In this document: one piece after another, positions 6,844 to 39,050 of the stretch | Layout of the letters: each line of letters begins with the position of its first letter | Position numbering within the stretch: the first letter of the stretch is position 1 | Source of the DNA: Ectopseudomonas composti | GTDB taxonomy: Bacteria; Pseudomonadota; Gammaproteobacteria; Pseudomonadales; Pseudomonadaceae | Assembly (NCBI RefSeq): GCF_001567565.1 | Contig: NZ_LSSW01000028.1 | Span: 1 to 64,000, forward strand | Direction of reading: 5' to 3' | Length of the DNA: 64,000 nucleotides | Notes under the pieces: model-generated | Seen by the model: only the letters and a program-made list of their open reading frames with translations | Database searches by the model: none | Told to the model about the DNA's origin: nothing | Translations under genes and position numbers: made by a program

Positions 6844-6904
6844 GTAGCCCGGATGCAATCCGGGGCTTTCAATTAGGGTGTCCCCCGGATTTCATCCGGG
6901 CTAC
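6844..6904. repeat. Inverted REP pair (REPIN, inward-facing)
   Basis: Two copies of REP family 1 face each other: a plus-strand copy at 6844-6865 and a minus-strand copy at 6883-6904, separated by 17 bases. Together they can fold into a long hairpin between purH and purD. The order is forward then reverse, opposite to the pairs flanking the RAYT gene. Confidence 0.85.
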
Positions 6905-30967: not shown

Positions 30968-31135
30968 GGGGGCTTCCGTTCCAGCAAAGCGCCGATTATA
31001 GGCACAGGGCTGGCGTAGCCGCACATCGCCTCAGGAGTGTGAGTGGCTTGGCGAATTCGTCGGGATGGCTCGTCGCTGCCAGTGCGCCTCAGCTATAGTT
31101 GTCGGCTTCTGCGCCCCCTGATTCCGGAGCCCGCA

Positions 31136-34100
31136 ATGCCGAACAAAGGACTGCTTCTGGCCCTCGCACTTACGCTGCCACTGACCCTGCTCAGCGCCTG
31201 CGATTCTTCTGAACCCCCAGCCACGGTGACCCCCGCTGCCCCTGCTGCGCAACAGCCGCAGGCACCCGCGCCTGCGGTCGACCGCGAGGCGCTGGCCAAG
31301 CGCTACGCCGGAAGCGAGCTGGAGGTGGTCGACGTCTCCGAGGTACAGCTCGACGGTGCTAGTGCGCTGTCGGTGACCTTCTCCATTCCGCTGGACCCCG
31401 AGCAGCCCTTCGCCGAGCGCCTGCATCTGGTCGACAGCGTCTCAGGCAAGGTCGATGGCGCCTGGGAGCTGACCGACAACCTCAGCGAACTGCGCCTGCG
31501 TCACCTGGAGCCCAAGCGCAAACTGGTGCTGACCATCGATGCCGGGCTCAAATCGATCAATGGCGGCAAGCTCGCCGCCGAACATGTCAGCCGCTTCGAA
31601 ACCCGTGACCTGCAGGCCAGTGTCGGTTTTGCCAGCCGTGGCTCGCTGCTGCCGACAAGGCTGGCCGAAGGCCTGCCGGTGATCGCCCTGAACGTCGACA
31701 AGGTCAATGTCGAGTTCTTCCGCATCAAGCCCGAGGCGCTGCCGAACTTCCTGTCGCGCTGGGGCCGAGCCAGCAACCTGGATACCTGGGAAGCGCGCGA
31801 GCTGCTGCCGATGGCCGATCTGGTCTACGGCGGCCGCTTCGACCTGAATCCGGCGCGCAATACCCGCGAGACCCTGCTGCTGCCCATCGCCGGCCTGGAG
31901 CCGTTCAAGCAGCCGGGCGTGTACCTGGCGGTGATGCGTGAGGCCGGCAGTTACAGCTATTCACAGCCGGCTACGCTGTTCTCCCTGAGCGATATCGGCC
32001 TGTCCGCGCATCGCTATCGCGACCGTCTCGATGTCTTCACCCAGGCACTGGAAGGTGGCAAGGCGCAGTCCGGCGTGCAGTTGGAGTTGCTCGACGGTGA
32101 CGGCGCGCTGCTCGCCGAAGGCAAGACCGATTCGGCTGGCCATGCGCAGATGCCGCTGCCAGCCAAGGCCCAGGTGCTGCTGGCCAAGCAGAACGAGCAG
32201 ACCAGCCTGCTGCGCCTGAACACGCCAGCGCTGGACCTGGCCGAGTTCGACATCACCGGCCCGAAAGCGCATGCCCTGCAGTTCTTCGTGTTCGGCCCGC
32301 GCGATCTGTATCGCCCTGGCGAGACCGTCCTGCTCAATGGCTTGCTGCGTGATGCCGACGGCAGCCCGGTCAAGGCGCAGCCGGTCAGCGTCGAGGTACG
32401 CCGCCCGGATGAGCAGATCAGCCGCAAGTTCGTCTGGAATGCCGGTGATGATGGCCTCTATCAATACCAGCTGCCGCTGGCCGAAGAGGCGCCGACCGGC
32501 CGCTGGCAGCTGCTGCTCGACCTGGGTGACGGCAACCCGCAGCTCTATGAGTTTCTCGTCGAGGACTTTTTGCCCGAGCGCATGGCTCTGGAACTCAAGG
32601 GCCAGGATCAGCCCTACGCGCCGGGCGACAGCGCCGAATTCGCGGTGACCGGGCGTTACCTGTACGGTGCTCCGGCCGCTGGCAACCGTCTGACCGGGCA
32701 ACTCTACGTGCGCCCGCTGCGCGAAGCCGTGGACAGCCTGCCGGGTTATCAGTTCGGCGACATCACCGAGGCCGAGCTGAGCCAGGATCAGGAACTCGAC
32801 GAACAGAACCTGGACGATGAAGGGCGTGCCGTGTTGCGCCCGGAAAATCGCTGGAGCGACGCCAAGTCGCCGCTGCGCCTGATCTTGCAGGCCAGCCTGC
32901 AGGAGTCCGGCGGCCGCCCGATCACCCGCCGCATCGTTCAGCCGGTATGGCCGGCCGAACGTTTGCCGGGCCTGCGTGGGCTGTTCGACGGCGAAGAAGT
33001 CGATGCCGACAGCCTGGCCGAATTCGAAATCCTCGTGGCCGATGCCGCCGGCAACAAGCTGGCCGCCGACAACCTCAATGTGCGCCTGGTGCGTGAGCGT
33101 CGCGACTATTTCTGGAGCTTCTCCGACGGCGAGGGCTGGCGCCACAACTACAACGAGAAATTCCTCACCCTCAGCGACGAGCCGCTGAAGGTCGCTGCCG
33201 GCGGCACCGCCAAGGTCAGCTTCCCGGTGGAGTGGGGCCCGTATCGGGTCGAGGTGGTGGACAACCAGACCGGCCTGGTCAGCAGCCTGCGCTTCTGGGC
33301 CGGCTACCGCTGGCAGGACAACGCCGATGGTGGTGCGGTGCGCCCGGACCAGGTCAAGCTGGCGCTGGACAAACCTGCCTACGCCGCTGGCGACGTGGCC
33401 AAGATCACCGTCACCCCGCCGGCTGCCGGCAACGGCTACCTGCTGGTCGAGTCCAGCGAGGGGCCGCTGTGGTGGCAGGAAATCAGCGTGCCGGCCGAAG
33501 GCAAGACCTTCGAGCTGCCTATCGACGAAAAATGGGCGCGTCATGACCTGTACCTCAGCGCCCTGGTGATTCGCCCTGGCGAGCGCAAGGCGCAGGTCAC
33601 GCCCAAGCGTGCCGTTGGCCTGCTGCACCTGCCACTGGAGCGCGCTCCACGCAAGTTGGCGGTGAGCCTGCAGGCGCCGGAGAAGATGCGTCCGAAGCAG
33701 CCGCTGAAGGTCAAGGTCAGCGCGCGCAACGCCGATGGCAGCATCCCCGAGACGGTGCATGTGCTGGTCGCAGCGGTCGATGTGGGTATCCTCAACATCA
33801 CCAGCTACGCCACCCCCGATCCGTTCACCACGTTCTTCGGGCGCAAGGCCTATGGCGCCGACCAGCTGGATATTTACGGGCAACTGATCGAAGCGCAGGG
33901 GCGCGTTGCCAGCCTGGCCTTCGGCGGTGACGCCGGCCTCGCCGCCGGCGGCAAACGCCCGGATACCAGCGTGCTGATCGTCGCGCTGCAGAGCGATGCG
34001 CTGAAGCTCGATGACAAGGGCGAAGGCGAAGTCAGCCTGGATATCCCCGACTTCAATGGCGAGCTGCGCCTGATGGCGCAAGCCTGGACCGACGAGCGCT

Positions 34101-36046
34101 TCGGTATGGCCGAGGCCAAGACGGTCGTCGCCGCGCCGCTGATCGCCGAGCTGTCGATGCCGCGCTTCCTCGCCGGTGGTGACGAAACCACCCTGGCGCT
34201 GGACCTGACCAACCTGTCCGGCAGCGAGCAGAAACTCGATGTGCAACTCGACGTCGAGGGGCAACTGCGCCTGCTCGGCAAGGGTGAATCGCCGATCAGC
34301 CTGAAGGACGGCGAGCGCACCACCCTGCGCATCCCGGTACGGGCCGAAGGTGGCCTGGGGCAGGGGCGTATCCATGTCGAGGTACAAGGCCTGGCGCTGC
34401 CGAACGAGTCACTGGGTGACTTCAGCCGCGAGTGGACGCTGGGTATTCGCCCGGCCTACCCGGCGCAACTGCAGCACTTCCGTGCGGTACTGGGAGAGGG
34501 CGAGCCATGGAGCATGCCGGCTGGCACCCTCAATCAGTTCGAACCGGCCGGGCTGGAGGCCGTGCTGGCGCTGTCGAGCCGGCCGCCGCTCAACCTCGGT
34601 GAGCAGATTCGTGCACTCAAGGCATACCCCTACGGCTGCCTGGAGCAGACCACCAGTGGCCTGTACCCGTCACTTTACGCCGACGCTGCGAGCCTCAAGC
34701 GTCTCGGCCTGGAAGGCGAGCCGGACGAACAGCGGCGCAAGAGCATCGAGCTGGGTATCGAGCGGCTGCTCGGCATGCAGCGCCACAATGGTGGCTTCGG
34801 CCTGTGGAGCGCCGAGAGCGAAGAGGAGTATTGGCTCACTGCCTATGTCACCGACTTCCTCCTGCGTGCCCGCGAGCAAGGTTTCGGGGTGCCGCAGGAA
34901 GCCTTGAAGAAGGCCACCGACCGCCTGCTGCGCTACCTGCAGCAGAGCAGCCTGATCGAAGCCAGCTACAGCCAGGACTTCGCCCACACCCGCTTCGCCG
35001 TGCAGGCCTACGCAGGCTATGTGCTGGCGCGCAGCCAGCAGGCGCCGCTGGGTGCGCTGCGCAGTCTGTTCGACCGTCGCAACGACGCCCGCTCCGGCCT
35101 GCCCCTGGTCCAACTGGCTGCTGCGCTGAAACTGATGGGCGATGCGCCGCGTGCCGAGCAGGCGCTGAATCAGGGCTTGATCCAACAGCGTGATGCTGAG
35201 CGCTGGATGGCCGATTACGGCAGTCCGCTGCGTGACCAGGCGCTGATCCTCGCCCTGCTGGAGGAGCACGACCTGGCTGCCGGCCAGCGCGAAAAGCGGC
35301 TGTTCAACCTGGCGGATGAGCTGGCTGGCCAGCGCTGGCTGTCGACTCAGGAACGCAACTCGCTGTTCCTCGCTGGTCGCGGCATTCTCGGCAAACCCGA
35401 GCAGGCCTGGAGCGCCAAACTGGCCAGCGGCACCTTCCAGTTCGACCTGAGCAACCAGCAGCCCGGCATCAAGCTGGAGCGTGCGGAGCTGGCAGAGCCG
35501 CTGAGCGTGAGCAACGCTGGCAGCGCCACCCTGTATCAGCAGCTGACCCTGTCCGGTTACCCGAGCCAGGCGCCGCGCGCCGGTGGTGAGAACCTCAGCA
35601 TCGAGCGCGAGTACCTCGGCATGGATGGCCGTCCGCTGGATCTGCAGCGCCTGGACAGCGGCGAACTGGTACTGGTGCACCTGGCCGTGCGCGCCAAGCA
35701 GCGCGTGCCGGATGCCCTGGTGGTCGACCTGCTGCCGGCCGGTCTGGAGCTGGAAAACCAGAACCTGGCGCAAAGCGCGGCGAGCCTCGATGACGCCGGC
35801 AGCAACGTCAAGGAATGGCGCCGCTCCATGCAGAACGCGCGGATCAAGCACCAGGAATACCGCGGTGATCGCTACGTGGCGGCGGTAGACGTGGAAGGCT
35901 ACGGCACCACCCATCTGCTTTATCTGGCCCGTGCGGTGACGCCTGGCAGCTACCGCGTACCGCCACCGCAGGTGGAGTCCATGTACCGGCCTAGCTGGCA
36001 GGCGCTGGGTAGTGCGCCGTCTTCGCTGGTGGTTAGGGGGCGTTAA
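31136..36046 (+). CDS. yfhM: Bacterial alpha-2-macroglobulin lipoprotein, YfhM type
   Basis: A 1636-residue periplasmic protease trap. The signal peptide ends in lipobox LSAC with Cys22, and Asp23 at +2 suggests retention on the inner membrane (E. coli rule). MG-type beta domains fill the first two thirds (e.g. ALQFFVFGPRDLYRPGETV), followed by the alpha-2-macroglobulin domain and the thioester domain. The thioester motif is intact: GCLEQ, with Cys1168. Known members pair with PbpC and are thought to protect the cell when peptidoglycan is breached. Here the partner pbpC follows, but a RAYT unit separates them. The ATG at 31136 (MPNKGLLL) has a CGGAG upstream. Confidence 0.95.
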   Translation: MPNKGLLLALALTLPLTLLSACDSSEPPATVTPAAPAAQQPQAPAPAVDREALAKRYAGSELEVVDVSEVQLDGASALSVTFSIPLDPEQPFAERLHLVDSVSGKVDGAWELTDNLSELRLRHLEPKRKLVLTIDAGLKSINGGKLAAEHVSRFETRDLQASVGFASRGSLLPTRLAEGLPVIALNVDKVNVEFFRIKPEALPNFLSRWGRASNLDTWEARELLPMADLVYGGRFDLNPARNTRETLLLPIAGLEPFKQPGVYLAVMREAGSYSYSQPATLFSLSDIGLSAHRYRDRLDVFTQALEGGKAQSGVQLELLDGDGALLAEGKTDSAGHAQMPLPAKAQVLLAKQNEQTSLLRLNTPALDLAEFDITGPKAHALQFFVFGPRDLYRPGETVLLNGLLRDADGSPVKAQPVSVEVRRPDEQISRKFVWNAGDDGLYQYQLPLAEEAPTGRWQLLLDLGDGNPQLYEFLVEDFLPERMALELKGQDQPYAPGDSAEFAVTGRYLYGAPAAGNRLTGQLYVRPLREAVDSLPGYQFGDITEAELSQDQELDEQNLDDEGRAVLRPENRWSDAKSPLRLILQASLQESGGRPITRRIVQPVWPAERLPGLRGLFDGEEVDADSLAEFEILVADAAGNKLAADNLNVRLVRERRDYFWSFSDGEGWRHNYNEKFLTLSDEPLKVAAGGTAKVSFPVEWGPYRVEVVDNQTGLVSSLRFWAGYRWQDNADGGAVRPDQVKLALDKPAYAAGDVAKITVTPPAAGNGYLLVESSEGPLWWQEISVPAEGKTFELPIDEKWARHDLYLSALVIRPGERKAQVTPKRAVGLLHLPLERAPRKLAVSLQAPEKMRPKQPLKVKVSARNADGSIPETVHVLVAAVDVGILNITSYATPDPFTTFFGRKAYGADQLDIYGQLIEAQGRVASLAFGGDAGLAAGGKRPDTSVLIVALQSDALKLDDKGEGEVSLDIPDFNGELRLMAQAWTDERFGMAEAKTVVAAPLIAELSMPRFLAGGDETTLALDLTNLSGSEQKLDVQLDVEGQLRLLGKGESPISLKDGERTTLRIPVRAEGGLGQGRIHVEVQGLALPNESLGDFSREWTLGIRPAYPAQLQHFRAVLGEGEPWSMPAGTLNQFEPAGLEAVLALSSRPPLNLGEQIRALKAYPYGCLEQTTSGLYPSLYADAASLKRLGLEGEPDEQRRKSIELGIERLLGMQRHNGGFGLWSAESEEEYWLTAYVTDFLLRAREQGFGVPQEALKKATDRLLRYLQQSSLIEASYSQDFAHTRFAVQAYAGYVLARSQQAPLGALRSLFDRRNDARSGLPLVQLAAALKLMGDAPRAEQALNQGLIQQRDAERWMADYGSPLRDQALILALLEEHDLAAGQREKRLFNLADELAGQRWLSTQERNSLFLAGRGILGKPEQAWSAKLASGTFQFDLSNQQPGIKLERAELAEPLSVSNAGSATLYQQLTLSGYPSQAPRAGGENLSIEREYLGMDGRPLDLQRLDSGELVLVHLAVRAKQRVPDALVVDLLPAGLELENQNLAQSAASLDDAGSNVKEWRRSMQNARIKHQEYRGDRYVAAVDVEGYGTTHLLYLARAVTPGSYRVPPPQVESMYRPSWQALGSAPSSLVVRGR

Positions 36047-36052
36047 GAGCAG

Positions 36053-36103
36053 CCCCGGACTGCATCCGGGCTACAGATCGCGTAGCCCGGATGCAATCCG
36101 GGG
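36053..36103. repeat. Outward-facing REP pair before the RAYT gene
   Basis: A minus-strand copy at 36053-36074 and a plus-strand copy at 36082-36103 of REP family 1, seven bases apart. The first starts six bases after the yfhM stop. The pair lies 26 bases before the RAYT start and is probably recognised by that enzyme. Confidence 0.88.
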
Positions 36104-36128
36104 ATTTTCGAGCACAAGGAGGTGCCGA

Positions 36129-36653
36129 ATGGTGAAATACCGCAGAGCCAAGGTAGCCGGCGGCTGTTACTTCTTGACGCTGACCCTGCAAGACAGACGT
36201 AGTGATCTGCTGTTCAAAGGCGCGGCGCTTTTACGTCGATGTTTGCAGGATACGCAGGTTCGATTGCCTTTTCGCGTACCTGCGTTGGTGGTGCTGCCAG
36301 ACCACCTGCACATGCTTATGTTGCTACCACCTGATGACGCCGATTTCTCTGCGCGAATCCGTATGCTCAAGGCCTCGTTCGTGGGAGCGCTACGCCAGCA
36401 GGTTGGCAGCGAAGTGCGTACCAACGCCAAAGGTGAGGCTAACATCTGGCAGCGACGATTCTGGGAGCATCTGATTCGTGATGAGCAGGATTACCGCAAT
36501 CATCTGGATTACATTCATATCAACCCGGTCAAGCACGGCCTGGTCGCGCGTGCGCAGGATTGGCCGTTTTCCAGCTTTCATCACTATGTGCGTCGAGGGT
36601 TGCTTCCGGTTGATTGGGCGGGCGCTGCCGAGATCGCAGATGCCGGTGAGTGA
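36129..36653 (+). CDS. REP-associated tyrosine transposase (RAYT)
   Basis: A 174-residue member of the single-copy Y1/HUH transposase-like family (IS200/IS605 relatives) that cuts and joins REP sequences. The HUH motif is His59-Leu-His61 in LPDHLHMLMLLP, and the catalytic Tyr128 is in DYIHINPVKHG; both are intact. It has a strong AAGGAGGTG ribosome site before the ATG at 36129. REP pairs flank it on both sides, the standard RAYT setting. In family members such proteins are usually vertically inherited rather than mobile. It splits the yfhM-pbpC pair. Confidence 0.93.
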   Translation: MVKYRRAKVAGGCYFLTLTLQDRRSDLLFKGAALLRRCLQDTQVRLPFRVPALVVLPDHLHMLMLLPPDDADFSARIRMLKASFVGALRQQVGSEVRTNAKGEANIWQRRFWEHLIRDEQDYRNHLDYIHINPVKHGLVARAQDWPFSSFHHYVRRGLLPVDWAGAAEIADAGE

Positions 36654-36659
36654 GGAATT

Positions 36660-36713
36660 CCCCGGATTGCATCCGGGCTACAGGTCCTGCGTAGCCCGGA
36701 TGCAATCCAGGGG
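36660..36713. repeat. Outward-facing REP pair after the RAYT gene
   Basis: A minus-strand copy at 36660-36681 and a plus-strand copy at 36691-36713 of REP family 1, nine bases apart. The second copy has one extra base (ATCCAGGGG). It ends 12 bases before the pbpC start and covers the region where a ribosome site would be expected. Confidence 0.88.
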
Positions 36714-36725
36714 CTTGTTCTGACC

Positions 36726-39050
36726 ATGCGATTTAACCGCTTACGTCGTTGGCTTATCGTCGCCTGCGTACCGCTTGCCCTGCTCTGGCTAGCCGACCGC
36801 CTCTTCCCACTGCCGCTGCCCGAGGACGACCTGGCTCGCGTGGTGCTGGCCGAGGACGGTACGCCGCTGTGGCGTTTCGCTGATCGTGACGGTGTCTGGC
36901 GCTACCCGGTGACCCCCGAAGAGGTTTCGCCCTATTACCTGGAAGCGCTGCTGACCTACGAGGATCGCTGGTTCCGCCAGCACCCCGGGGTCAACCCGCT
37001 GTCGCTGGCCCGTGCCGCCTGGCAAAACCTTAGCGGTGGGCGCGTGGTGTCCGGCGGCAGTACGCTGTCGATGCAGGTGGCGCGTCTGCTCGATCCGCAT
37101 GGGCGTGACCTGCCCGGCAAGCTCAAGCAGCTGTGGCGCACCGCGCAGCTGGAGTGGCATCTGTCCAAGGACGAAATTCTCACCCTGTACCTCAACCGTG
37201 CGCCCTTCGGGGGCACTCTGCAGGGCGTGGCAGCCGCCAGCTGGAGTTATCTGGGCAAGCCGCCGAGCCAGCTGACCCGTGCCGATGCCGCGCTGCTCGC
37301 GGTGCTGCCGCAGGCGCCCAGCCGCTTGCGTCCGGACCGTCATCCCGAGCGCGCCCAGGCCGCGCGCGACAAGGTGCTGCGTCGCCTGGGGGAATTTCAG
37401 GTGTGGCCGCAGGCCCAGGTGGACGAGGCGCTGGAGGAGCCGGTGTTTCTCGCTCCGCGCCGTGAGCCAAGCCTGGCGCCGTTGTTGGCGCGCCGTCTGA
37501 ACCGCCCCGGCAGTCCGCCACTGATCCGCACCACTCTCGATGCCGGTTTGCAGCAGCGCCTGGAAGACTTGCTGCTGGGCTGGCGGGCACGCCTGCCGGA
37601 GCGCACCTCGGCGGCAATCCTGGTGGTCGAGCACCCGAGCATGGCCGTGCGAGCCTACCTCGGCTCGGTGGATATCGCCGACACCGCGCGCTTCGGGCAT
37701 GTCGACATGGTGCGCGCCCTGCGTTCGCCCGGCTCGACGCTCAAGCCCTTCCTCTACGGCATGGCCCTGGATGCCGGGCTGATCCATTCCGAATCGCTGC
37801 TGCAGGACGTGCCACGGCACTACGGCGATTACCGTCCCGGCAATTTCGCCGCCGGCTTCATCGGCCCGGTGTCGGCCAGCGAGGCGCTGGCCACTTCGCT
37901 GAACCTGCCTGCCGTGCAACTGCTCGAGGCCTACGGGCCGAAGCGCTTTGCCGGTGAACTGCGCAGTGCCGGTGTGCCGATTCGCCTGCCGGCGCTGGCC
38001 GAGCCGAACCTGGCGCTGATTCTGGGCGGCGGCGGCTCGCGTCTGGAATCGCTGGTAGCGGGCTACAGCGTATTCGCGCGCGGCGGCATGGCGGCCAAGC
38101 CGCGCCTGCGGCCGAGTGATGAGCTGCGCGAGCGGCGCCTGCTGTCGCCCGGTTCGGCGTGGATCATCAGGCGCATCCTCAGCGGTCAGGCGCGCCCTGA
38201 TCGTGACCCACGCGCCTACCTGGCGCAGCGTCCGACCCTGGCCTGGAAGACCGGCACCAGCTACGGCTTTCGTGATGCCTGGGCCATCGGCGTCGGCCCG
38301 CGTCACCTGATCGGTATCTGGATCGGTCGCCCGGACGGCACTCCGGTGCCCGGCCAGTTCGGCCTGGCGTCGGCCGCGCCGCTGTTGCTGCAGGTGCATG
38401 ATCTGCTGGTCAATCGCGACAGTCAGCGCGGTATCGCTGTGCCGGCCGATCCGCAGCCGCCCGAGGTGGGCGTGGCCGCCATCTGTTGGCCTTTGGGGCA
38501 GCCGATGAGCAAGGATGATCCCAACTGCCGGCGCCTGCGCTTCGCCTGGACGCTCGAAGGCACCACGCCGCCCACGCTGCTGGCGGCTGATCAGCCGTTG
38601 GGTAGCGGCTTGCGCGAGCGTTATTGGGTCAATGGCGAAGGGCGCCGCGTCGGCCCGGACTGTGTCGGTGCCGAAGTGCGCGAGCTGGCGTTGTGGCCGG
38701 CGCCGCTGGAGCCCTGGCTGCCCCGTCGAGAGCAGCGTGCTGCGCGTTTGCCGAGCATCGATCCACGCTGCCCGCCACCGCGCAGCAGTCAGGTGGCACC
38801 GCTGTCCATCGTCGGTGTACGCGACGGTGATCGCCTGCGCCGCCCGCAAGGCAATCATGAACCGCTACGGCTGAGTCTTTCGGCCCTGGGCGGCAGCGGT
38901 CGGCGCTGGTGGTTTCTCGATGGCCAGCCTTTGGGCGAGAGTGCGCTGGATGCTCCCTTCACCCAGGCGTTCGACAGCGGCAGGCATCAACTGAGCGTGC
39001 TCGATGAAGGTGGGCAGACCGCTCGTCTGGAATTCAGCGTAGGGCCCTGA
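36726..39050 (+). CDS. pbpC: Penicillin-binding protein 1C
   Basis: A 774-residue bifunctional peptidoglycan synthase. It has an N-terminal membrane anchor (about 8-25), a GT51 glycosyltransferase domain with catalytic Glu79 (YEDRWFRQHPGVNP), a transpeptidase domain with Ser337-x-x-Lys340 (SPGSTLKP) and Lys508-Thr-Gly510 (WKTGTSYGFRDAW), and a C-terminal BiPBP_C domain. It usually works with the adjacent alpha-2-macroglobulin. The ATG at 36726 lacks a clear Shine-Dalgarno because REP sequence lies immediately upstream. Confidence 0.96.
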   Translation: MRFNRLRRWLIVACVPLALLWLADRLFPLPLPEDDLARVVLAEDGTPLWRFADRDGVWRYPVTPEEVSPYYLEALLTYEDRWFRQHPGVNPLSLARAAWQNLSGGRVVSGGSTLSMQVARLLDPHGRDLPGKLKQLWRTAQLEWHLSKDEILTLYLNRAPFGGTLQGVAAASWSYLGKPPSQLTRADAALLAVLPQAPSRLRPDRHPERAQAARDKVLRRLGEFQVWPQAQVDEALEEPVFLAPRREPSLAPLLARRLNRPGSPPLIRTTLDAGLQQRLEDLLLGWRARLPERTSAAILVVEHPSMAVRAYLGSVDIADTARFGHVDMVRALRSPGSTLKPFLYGMALDAGLIHSESLLQDVPRHYGDYRPGNFAAGFIGPVSASEALATSLNLPAVQLLEAYGPKRFAGELRSAGVPIRLPALAEPNLALILGGGGSRLESLVAGYSVFARGGMAAKPRLRPSDELRERRLLSPGSAWIIRRILSGQARPDRDPRAYLAQRPTLAWKTGTSYGFRDAWAIGVGPRHLIGIWIGRPDGTPVPGQFGLASAAPLLLQVHDLLVNRDSQRGIAVPADPQPPEVGVAAICWPLGQPMSKDDPNCRRLRFAWTLEGTTPPTLLAADQPLGSGLRERYWVNGEGRRVGPDCVGAEVRELALWPAPLEPWLPRREQRAARLPSIDPRCPPPRSSQVAPLSIVGVRDGDRLRRPQGNHEPLRLSLSALGGSGRRWWFLDGQPLGESALDAPFTQAFDSGRHQLSVLDEGGQTARLEFSVGP

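Follow-up and report, generated by a model that had tools for sequence, protein, structure and literature searches.

The RAYT gene and REP repeats between yfhM and pbpC in the 64,000-nucleotide stretch of Ectopseudomonas composti DNA analysed here (the window) probably represent a long-resident unit at a swappable cassette locus, where homologous recombination is likely to have moved alleles between species. The window belongs to the P. mendocina/oleovorans group, in which this slot is occupied by RAYT and REPs (type R), by a DUF559 nuclease gene with BoxC/PIT triplex-motif repeats (type D) or, in a third form, by a lone REP pair. If true, a slot where a RAYT cassette swaps with another repeat system would bear on how repeat populations lose and regain their partner gene.

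The yfhM-pbpC junction in the window

The yfhM stop and the pbpC start are 679 bp apart and enclose a RAYT gene flanked on either side by an inverted REP pair. The first-pass annotation had placed a RAYT/REP unit here, and the coordinates, an NCBIfam match and a REP scan bear it out. The features are as follows:

31136..36046, plus strand: yfhM, bacterial alpha-2-macroglobulin, starting at the ATG of a lipoprotein-like signal
36053..36103, unstranded: left REP pair, inverted repeats; REP(-) 36054-36074, REP(+) 36082-36102
36116..36122, plus strand: strong Shine-Dalgarno (SD) sequence of the RAYT, AAGGAGG, read from the sequence
36129..36653, plus strand: RAYT gene (TnpA-REP, Y1/HUH transposase); ATG 36129, TGA 36651-36653
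36660..36713, unstranded: right REP pair; REP(-) 36661-36681, REP(+) 36691-36711
36710..36713, plus strand: GGGG, the sole SD-like tract seen 5' of pbpC, paired in a predicted hairpin
36726..39050, plus strand: pbpC, penicillin-binding protein 1C; ATG 36726; NF008414, 1314.3 bits
36726..36785, plus strand: first 60 nt of pbpC, the part tracking cassette type in relatives, from alignment windows

The yfhM reading frame spans 31043-36046 and ends with TAA at 36044-36046; the start within it and the lipobox were picked by eye. Its translation from 31130-36043 matched 11 Pfam families, mostly A2M domains. The RAYT was assigned to the NCBIfam REP-associated tyrosine transposase family (NF047646, 178.9 bits, cut-off 80) and has TnpArep (4er8) as its nearest solved chain (E 3.4e-46), while the Pfam Y1_Tnp profile scored 20.3 bits, below its cut-off of 23. 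The right REP pair is a direct repeat of the left one. Both are 22-bp inverted pairs whose GTAG ends point inward, at each other, and not outward as had been described; the distances given earlier, six bases past yfhM and 12 before pbpC, hold if the repeats are taken as 36053-36713. Long hairpins are predicted at the left pair (RNA fold z = -6.9, 36030-36140) and at the right pair (z = -5.2, 36648-36770). A simple scan of 35600-37200 found no sigma-70-like promoter. Neither a sigma-70 promoter nor a terminator was accepted for the junction: no promoter matched, and the one terminator-like match lies within the RAYT (mean in shuffles 1.2).

The genome has one copy of the RAYT, the two other matches being only 44% and 31% identical to it. 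Its REP, by comparison, has 210 genomic matches (107 forward, 103 reverse) when up to three mismatches are allowed, and the reversed control pattern has none. At the same tolerance the window holds seven matches, and none was found in 100 shuffles; the further copies in the window lie at 1958-1978, 6844-6864 and 6884-6904. A classical insertion sequence of the IS200/IS605 kind was rejected, since the gene is single copy, there are no mobile copies of a whole element and the IS200 model scored 24.9 bits against a cut-off of 55. We also rejected the idea that a different RAYT drives this REP class, which was absent within 300 bp of all 15 other RAYT loci; the junction RAYT is therefore most likely its partner. 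By analogy with RAYTs that have been characterised, its protein is likely to act on the GTAGCCCGGATGCAATCCGGG REPs of the genome by nicking and copying them.

The anatomy of the window's unit is real and, for a RAYT/REP unit, ordinary: a REP-associated Y1 (HUH) transposase gene in single copy, flanked by GTAG-headed inverted pairs of a multicopy REP. It departs from the usual, though not strictly defining, pattern in one respect, strictly vertical inheritance at one locus. The junction RAYTs form one clade at depth, yet their tree conflicts with that of the core (yfhM and pbpC only) within the mendocina group.

Junction contents and age of the RAYT across Pseudomonas

We annotated 101 junctions (80 named loci, 20 further genome stretches and the window), sampled at one genome per species, so that the comparison covers variation between species. 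Removing six duplicates (L213, L214, L217, L220, L222 and L223) and two very short contigs (L045 and L055) left 93 rows. The two genes were linked in 85 of these, so they are not unlinked in all pseudomonads, a circumstance that the first-pass annotation had considered; the other eight rows had no yfhM in the stretch examined, at least two of them lying at a contig edge. Separately, a close pbpC orthologue appeared, by eye and among the matches listed, to be absent from about half of 199 genus genomes.

Fewer than 110 bp lie between yfhM and pbpC in just six of the 85 linked loci. An antisense small gene occurs there in 62 (52 with this gene alone, eight with RAYT as well and two with DUF559); a further 11 loci contain DUF559 only, five RAYT only and seven neither. 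RAYT and DUF559 were found together at none of the 85 linked junctions. The product of the small gene is membrane-like, about 97 residues long and conserved, and had no match in Pfam; in L070, for example, the gene is on the minus strand, 126-416 bp past the yfhM stop. Minus-strand reading frames with collagen-like (GPQG-type) repeats were also seen between the two genes in L040, L053 and L060.

In a tree of junction RAYTs and 22 RAYTs from elsewhere in the genus, the 13 junction copies formed one clade (support 98/94), with L180 and L181 as its sister pair. This tree was built from the junction copies plus a single locus per genome, and excluded the short, divergent L003. By eye, L180 and L181 have a related, longer REP form. 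The clade spans the window's group, where RAYT is present in five of 22 rows (window included) and thus not in most close relatives, and eight loci of other lineages. Because the 13 sampled junction RAYTs form one clade, we regard the gene as an old resident. The pattern fits one old arrival just 3' of yfhM, with REPs on both sides, which would have been established in an ancestor of several Pseudomonas lineages, followed by repeated loss or exchange.

The first-pass annotation had pictured an insertion that might change how the two partners are expressed. On such a reading, a recent RAYT insertion would have split a co-expressed yfhM-pbpC pair here. The annotation's premise that the genes are adjacent in enterobacteria holds in E. 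coli K-12, where they abut (yfhM end 2647326, pbpC start 2647325); the unit does lie between them in the window, and the SD-like tract of pbpC is weak and predicted to be paired. However, the antisense gene separates the pair in 62 of the 85 linked Pseudomonas loci, and the junction RAYTs of the window's group and of the eight other loci share the single clade, on which ground a recent insertion was rejected as the source of the unit. A recent split of a coupled pair is accordingly quite improbable. Comparison of the junction among pseudomonads, which the annotation had suggested, thus supported a unit that separates the genes and carries the pbpC leader, and not a new event that split a coupled pair.

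Probable cassette exchange in the P. mendocina/oleovorans group

In the clade that contains the window, all 22 rows lack the small gene. Type R comprises the window, L034, L035, L041 and L047, and type D 11 loci; the other six rows contain neither RAYT nor DUF559. Of these, L043, L044, L046 and L205 are lone-REP-pair loci with junctions of 67-68 bp, holding one REP pair whose outer letters are as in R, L205 having been assigned from its leader and gap length. The remaining two are L040, with a different insert of 2.1 kb, and L051, with neither repeat class. The junction RAYT of L047 (Pseudomonas sp. 8Z) is apparently frameshifted near codon 27, where tblastn gave two pieces in different frames, and a stretch of about 2 kb containing a transposase-like reading frame, which we take to be IS66-like, interrupts the junction DUF559 gene of L206 (genome G078).

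Within the clade, 19 of the 22 rows were analysed; L038 (no settled start), L040 (the 2.1-kb insert) and L051 (distant, with neither cassette) were left out. Cassette type requires nine changes over these 19 loci on the DNA core tree, which was built from yfhM and pbpC alone, genes that may themselves recombine. AU tests on the core rejected a single clade of all R carriers (p 4e-69) and two groupings found among RAYTs, L035 with L041 (p 0.0027) and the window with L034 and L047 (p 5e-48); conversely, the RAYT tree rejected the window with L034 and L035 (p 0.0004). All these groups were named once the trees had been seen, so the p values are too low.

Sequence identity around the cassette was compared between loci of the same and of different type, over alignment columns that take in short gaps and with permutations that ignore relatedness. 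Over pbpC nt 1-30, same-type loci exceeded different-type loci in identity by 0.394 (p 0.001), a signal that comes partly from alignment gaps between D and R starts; over nt 31-60 the excess was 0.097 (p 0.012), and no window past nt 60 reached p 0.05. On the other side, the final 300 nt of yfhM were covered by ten windows, a single one of which gave p 0.012, with a small difference of 0.028, and the others did not reach p 0.05. Moreover, same-type loci of different subclades have identical pbpC starts (for example L043, L046 and L205; L036 and L037).

These conflicting trees and mosaic patterns suggest that alleles pass from one species to another through homologous recombination, with yfhM and pbpC as anchors, and not through frequent transposition. 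The antisense small gene would have been lost in this group and then followed by the alternative alleles R, D and lone REP pair, the last being the product expected from a deletion between the two directly repeated REP pairs. The exchanged stretch would begin at the yfhM stop and reach roughly codon 10-20 of pbpC. We hold the exchange reading slightly less firmly on account of the AU groups picked after the trees and of REP numbers that show no decay (see below).

Could the site instead be an insertion hot spot just past yfhM, entered by RAYT and DUF559 units in many independent events, without allele exchange? Across the survey, the fewest changes on the protein tree were 10 for RAYT, 12 for DUF559 and two for the small gene, and the first two counts agree with repeated landing. 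DUF559 also occurs in two lineages outside the window's group that retain the small gene (L091 and L221), and its junction copies, with the interrupted copy of L206 left out, are not cleanly one clade, needing two changes with weak support, so repeated insertion at a single site retains some probability, chiefly for DUF559. The junction RAYTs, however, group as one clade to the exclusion of the other RAYTs in the tree, and independent landings do not account well for identical pbpC starts in same-type loci of different subclades. We therefore consider this explanation unlikely. An old polymorphism, in which all alleles are ancestral and were sorted by chance with no transfer between species, would agree with the depth of the junction RAYT clade. 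It would, however, mean that all three alleles outlasted many species splits, and well supported sisters differ in type (L034 is R and L036 is D, 100/100), which makes it very improbable.

The pbpC leader and first codons

pbpC had been described as having no visible ribosome site. Among the 20 nt before the start, the strongest anti-SD duplex (-5.7 kcal/mol) is that of the GGGG tract at 36710-36713, 12 nt before the ATG, which contradicts this in part; the description keeps some force in that the tract is weak, being paired in the predicted REP hairpin. The R leaders (n=5) range from that value in the window to -8.6 kcal/mol, and the lone-REP-pair leaders (n=4) from -6.5 to -6.6; both groups share GGGAG or GGGG 12 nt before the pbpC ATG. 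Leaders of type D have GGGAGAGGG 6 nt before the ATG, with an anti-SD energy of -8.4 kcal/mol, in 10 of 11 loci, the start of the 11th, L038, being unsettled. The first residues of PbpC at D loci also differ from those at R and lone-pair loci. By eye, the triplex-motif repeat of L038 runs directly into pbpC and the usual first residues are absent; a downstream GTG preceded by GGGAGAGGG may be its start.

Since the last repeat of the cassette carries the SD-like tract before pbpC, the repeat supplies the leader of this gene. Every allele visibly brings pbpC its own leader, ribosome-binding tract and first residues, which may in turn affect its expression; the start region of a PBP1C gene is in this way rewritten by repeats. 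The cassettes might even be regulatory leaders under selection, in which a REP or triplex hairpin would tune pbpC translation and swaps would adjust the level of PbpC. Such tuning would be compatible with cassette exchange, and the anti-SD energies and spacings of the three leader types, together with the strong predicted hairpins, speak for it. Nonetheless, the pbpC leaders of other lineages, whose starts were picked by script, spread more widely (anti-SD +2.2 to -10.0), and hitchhiking accounts for the same pattern, so that selection on the leaders seems fairly unlikely.

DUF559 nucleases and triplex-motif repeats

The gene of the D cassette belongs to PF04480 (146.5 bits) and is close to a solved 'Endonuclease-Like Protein' (3hrl, E 1.2e-29); residues D47, E58, D60, Q63 and H64 are conserved in all 63 aligned DUF559 proteins. 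The repeats around it have the layout CCCTCTCCC-loop-GGGAGAGGG-linker-GGGnGAGGG and often form inverted pairs. We scored a locus as positive if the nonamer CCCTCnCCC or GGGnGAGGG occurred within 300 bp, loci without an exact nonamer counting as misses. Each genome contributed its best-scoring DUF559 match only, which may raise the proportions above those for all DUF559 genes.

The nonamer was found at 28 of 30 DUF559 loci of the genus, on both sides in 22, at a density of 11.7 per kb against 0.13 farther out; six of the 30 are junction copies, and without them the count is 22 of 24. Among control loci it was found at one of 25 RAYT, one of 28 pbpC and four of 23 REP loci, those under 3,000 bases having been skipped (25 of 29, 28 of 29 and 23 of 30 were used). 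At the level of the class, 25 of 30 DUF559 loci were positive (21 on both sides), and four of the five misses show other hairpin repeats by eye. The phylum set, 30 loci minus two already in the class set, gave 18 of 28 (14 on both sides), and 14 of 22 outside the class. In the sampled Pseudomonadota (L144-L173, L224-L253 and L255-L282), BoxC/PIT triplex-motif repeats thus often lie on the flanks of small DUF559 genes. In E. coli MG1655 (K-12), ycjD (DUF559, 1351407-1351760; L203) lies 167 bp from triplex motif 9, which ends at 1351239.

Gene and repeats also co-occur across genomes. Among 274 genomes of the class, at least five repeats were found in 35 of the 59 with a DUF559 match of at least 60 bits, versus 23 of the 215 others (OR 12.2, p 7.6e-14, a rough value, as the genomes are related). 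In the genus the counts were 21 of 35 and 10 of 164 (OR 23.1), four genomes with DUF559 only in frames of 329-389 aa not being counted as having a small DUF559. The 60-bit and five-repeat thresholds were fixed after the tables had been seen, and the result was alike with repeat thresholds of 1 and 10. No excess was seen in the 25 genomes of the class that have weak DUF559 matches only, 16 of them in open frames of more than 700 codons (at least five repeats in three of 25). A chance association of DUF559 with the repeats was rejected on the locus controls and the genome co-occurrence.

Two features of a RAYT-like system are therefore found here, a gene flanked by repeats and gene and repeat numbers that covary across genomes, and DUF559 nucleases are a strong lead for the partner gene of triplex-motif repeats, as judged from sequence. 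Slightly more tentatively than at even chances, we suggest that two unrelated systems, each of a nuclease gene and palindromic repeats, compete as alleles for one slot: RAYT-REP and a second kind, in which a small DUF559 (Vsr-like) protein would be the partner of BoxC/PIT/triplex-motif repeats across Pseudomonadota and would do for them what RAYT does for REPs, spreading or maintaining them. With a nuclease regularly beside them and its catalytic-type residues conserved, the way in which triplex repeats spread becomes testable, E. coli K-12 included.

Repeats without their proposed partner gene

Five D genomes, which have no junction RAYT (G012, G063, G078, G113 and G177), contain 218-292 REPs of its class, against 186 and 88 in two R genomes (G000, that of the window, and G008) and 71 in the lone-pair genome G064. 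In this sample, genomes that have lost the RAYT do not have fewer REPs, and so there is no sign of REP decay after its swap-out. Conversely, at least ten triplex motifs without a DUF559 match were found in nine of 199 genomes. Five of these have RAYT at the junction (G000 with 49 motifs, G008 with 14, G028 with 62 and G118 with 83) or a lone REP pair (G064 with 57); the other four (G016, G027, G029 and G047) have neither an R nor a lone-pair junction. Three genomes with RAYT at the junction (G054, G060 and G069) have DUF559 elsewhere and merely 1-3 triplex motifs. The orphan-repeat pattern matches a swap-out of either partner, although it falls short of proof.

Comparison with known systems

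The repeats around the DUF559 gene of the D cassette are of the same kind as the BoxC/PIT, or intrastrand triplex-motif, repeats described by Holder et al. 2015 (PMC4666352), which the part of that paper available to us traces to catalogues dating from at least Hoyne et al. 2000. In that part, the E. coli repeats are presented without association with mobile elements or a functional class of genes, whereas here a nuclease gene is their regular neighbour; its main text contains no occurrence of ycjD or of 'endonuclease'. The D-cassette gene, for its part, resembles the DUF559/YcjD Vsr-like PD-(D/E)XK nucleases (PMC1189080; Caulobacter VsrA, PMC12907096) in its PF04480 assignment and its conserved acidic and QH residues. 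The portions of those papers at hand treat such proteins as members of the PD-(D/E)XK group or as a predicted mismatch-repair endonuclease, and make no mention there of flanking palindromic repeats. In the open-access literature searched, in so far as its text was accessible, we found no gene named for the spread of triplex-motif repeats, nor a link between them and DUF559 or an alternation of RAYT with a second repeat system.

The window's unit shares with known RAYT/REP systems (TnpA-REP, REPIN-RAYT; E. coli TnpArep 4er8, P. fluorescens orthogroups; PMC3686654, PMC8049555) a single RAYT and GTAG-headed REPs in inverted pairs on both sides and, as in the sections of these papers available, about two hundred cognate REPs per genome and a RAYT at one chromosomal place across related species. 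Orthologous RAYTs at one place with differing REPs have been reported, as have REPs without a RAYT (PMC3686654, sections available), and RAYTs have been described as single copy and vertically inherited (PMC8049555, likewise). The window's case differs in that the conflict between the RAYT and core trees speaks against purely vertical inheritance in its group, and in that, from one species to another, an unrelated unit of gene and repeats takes its place at the resident site.
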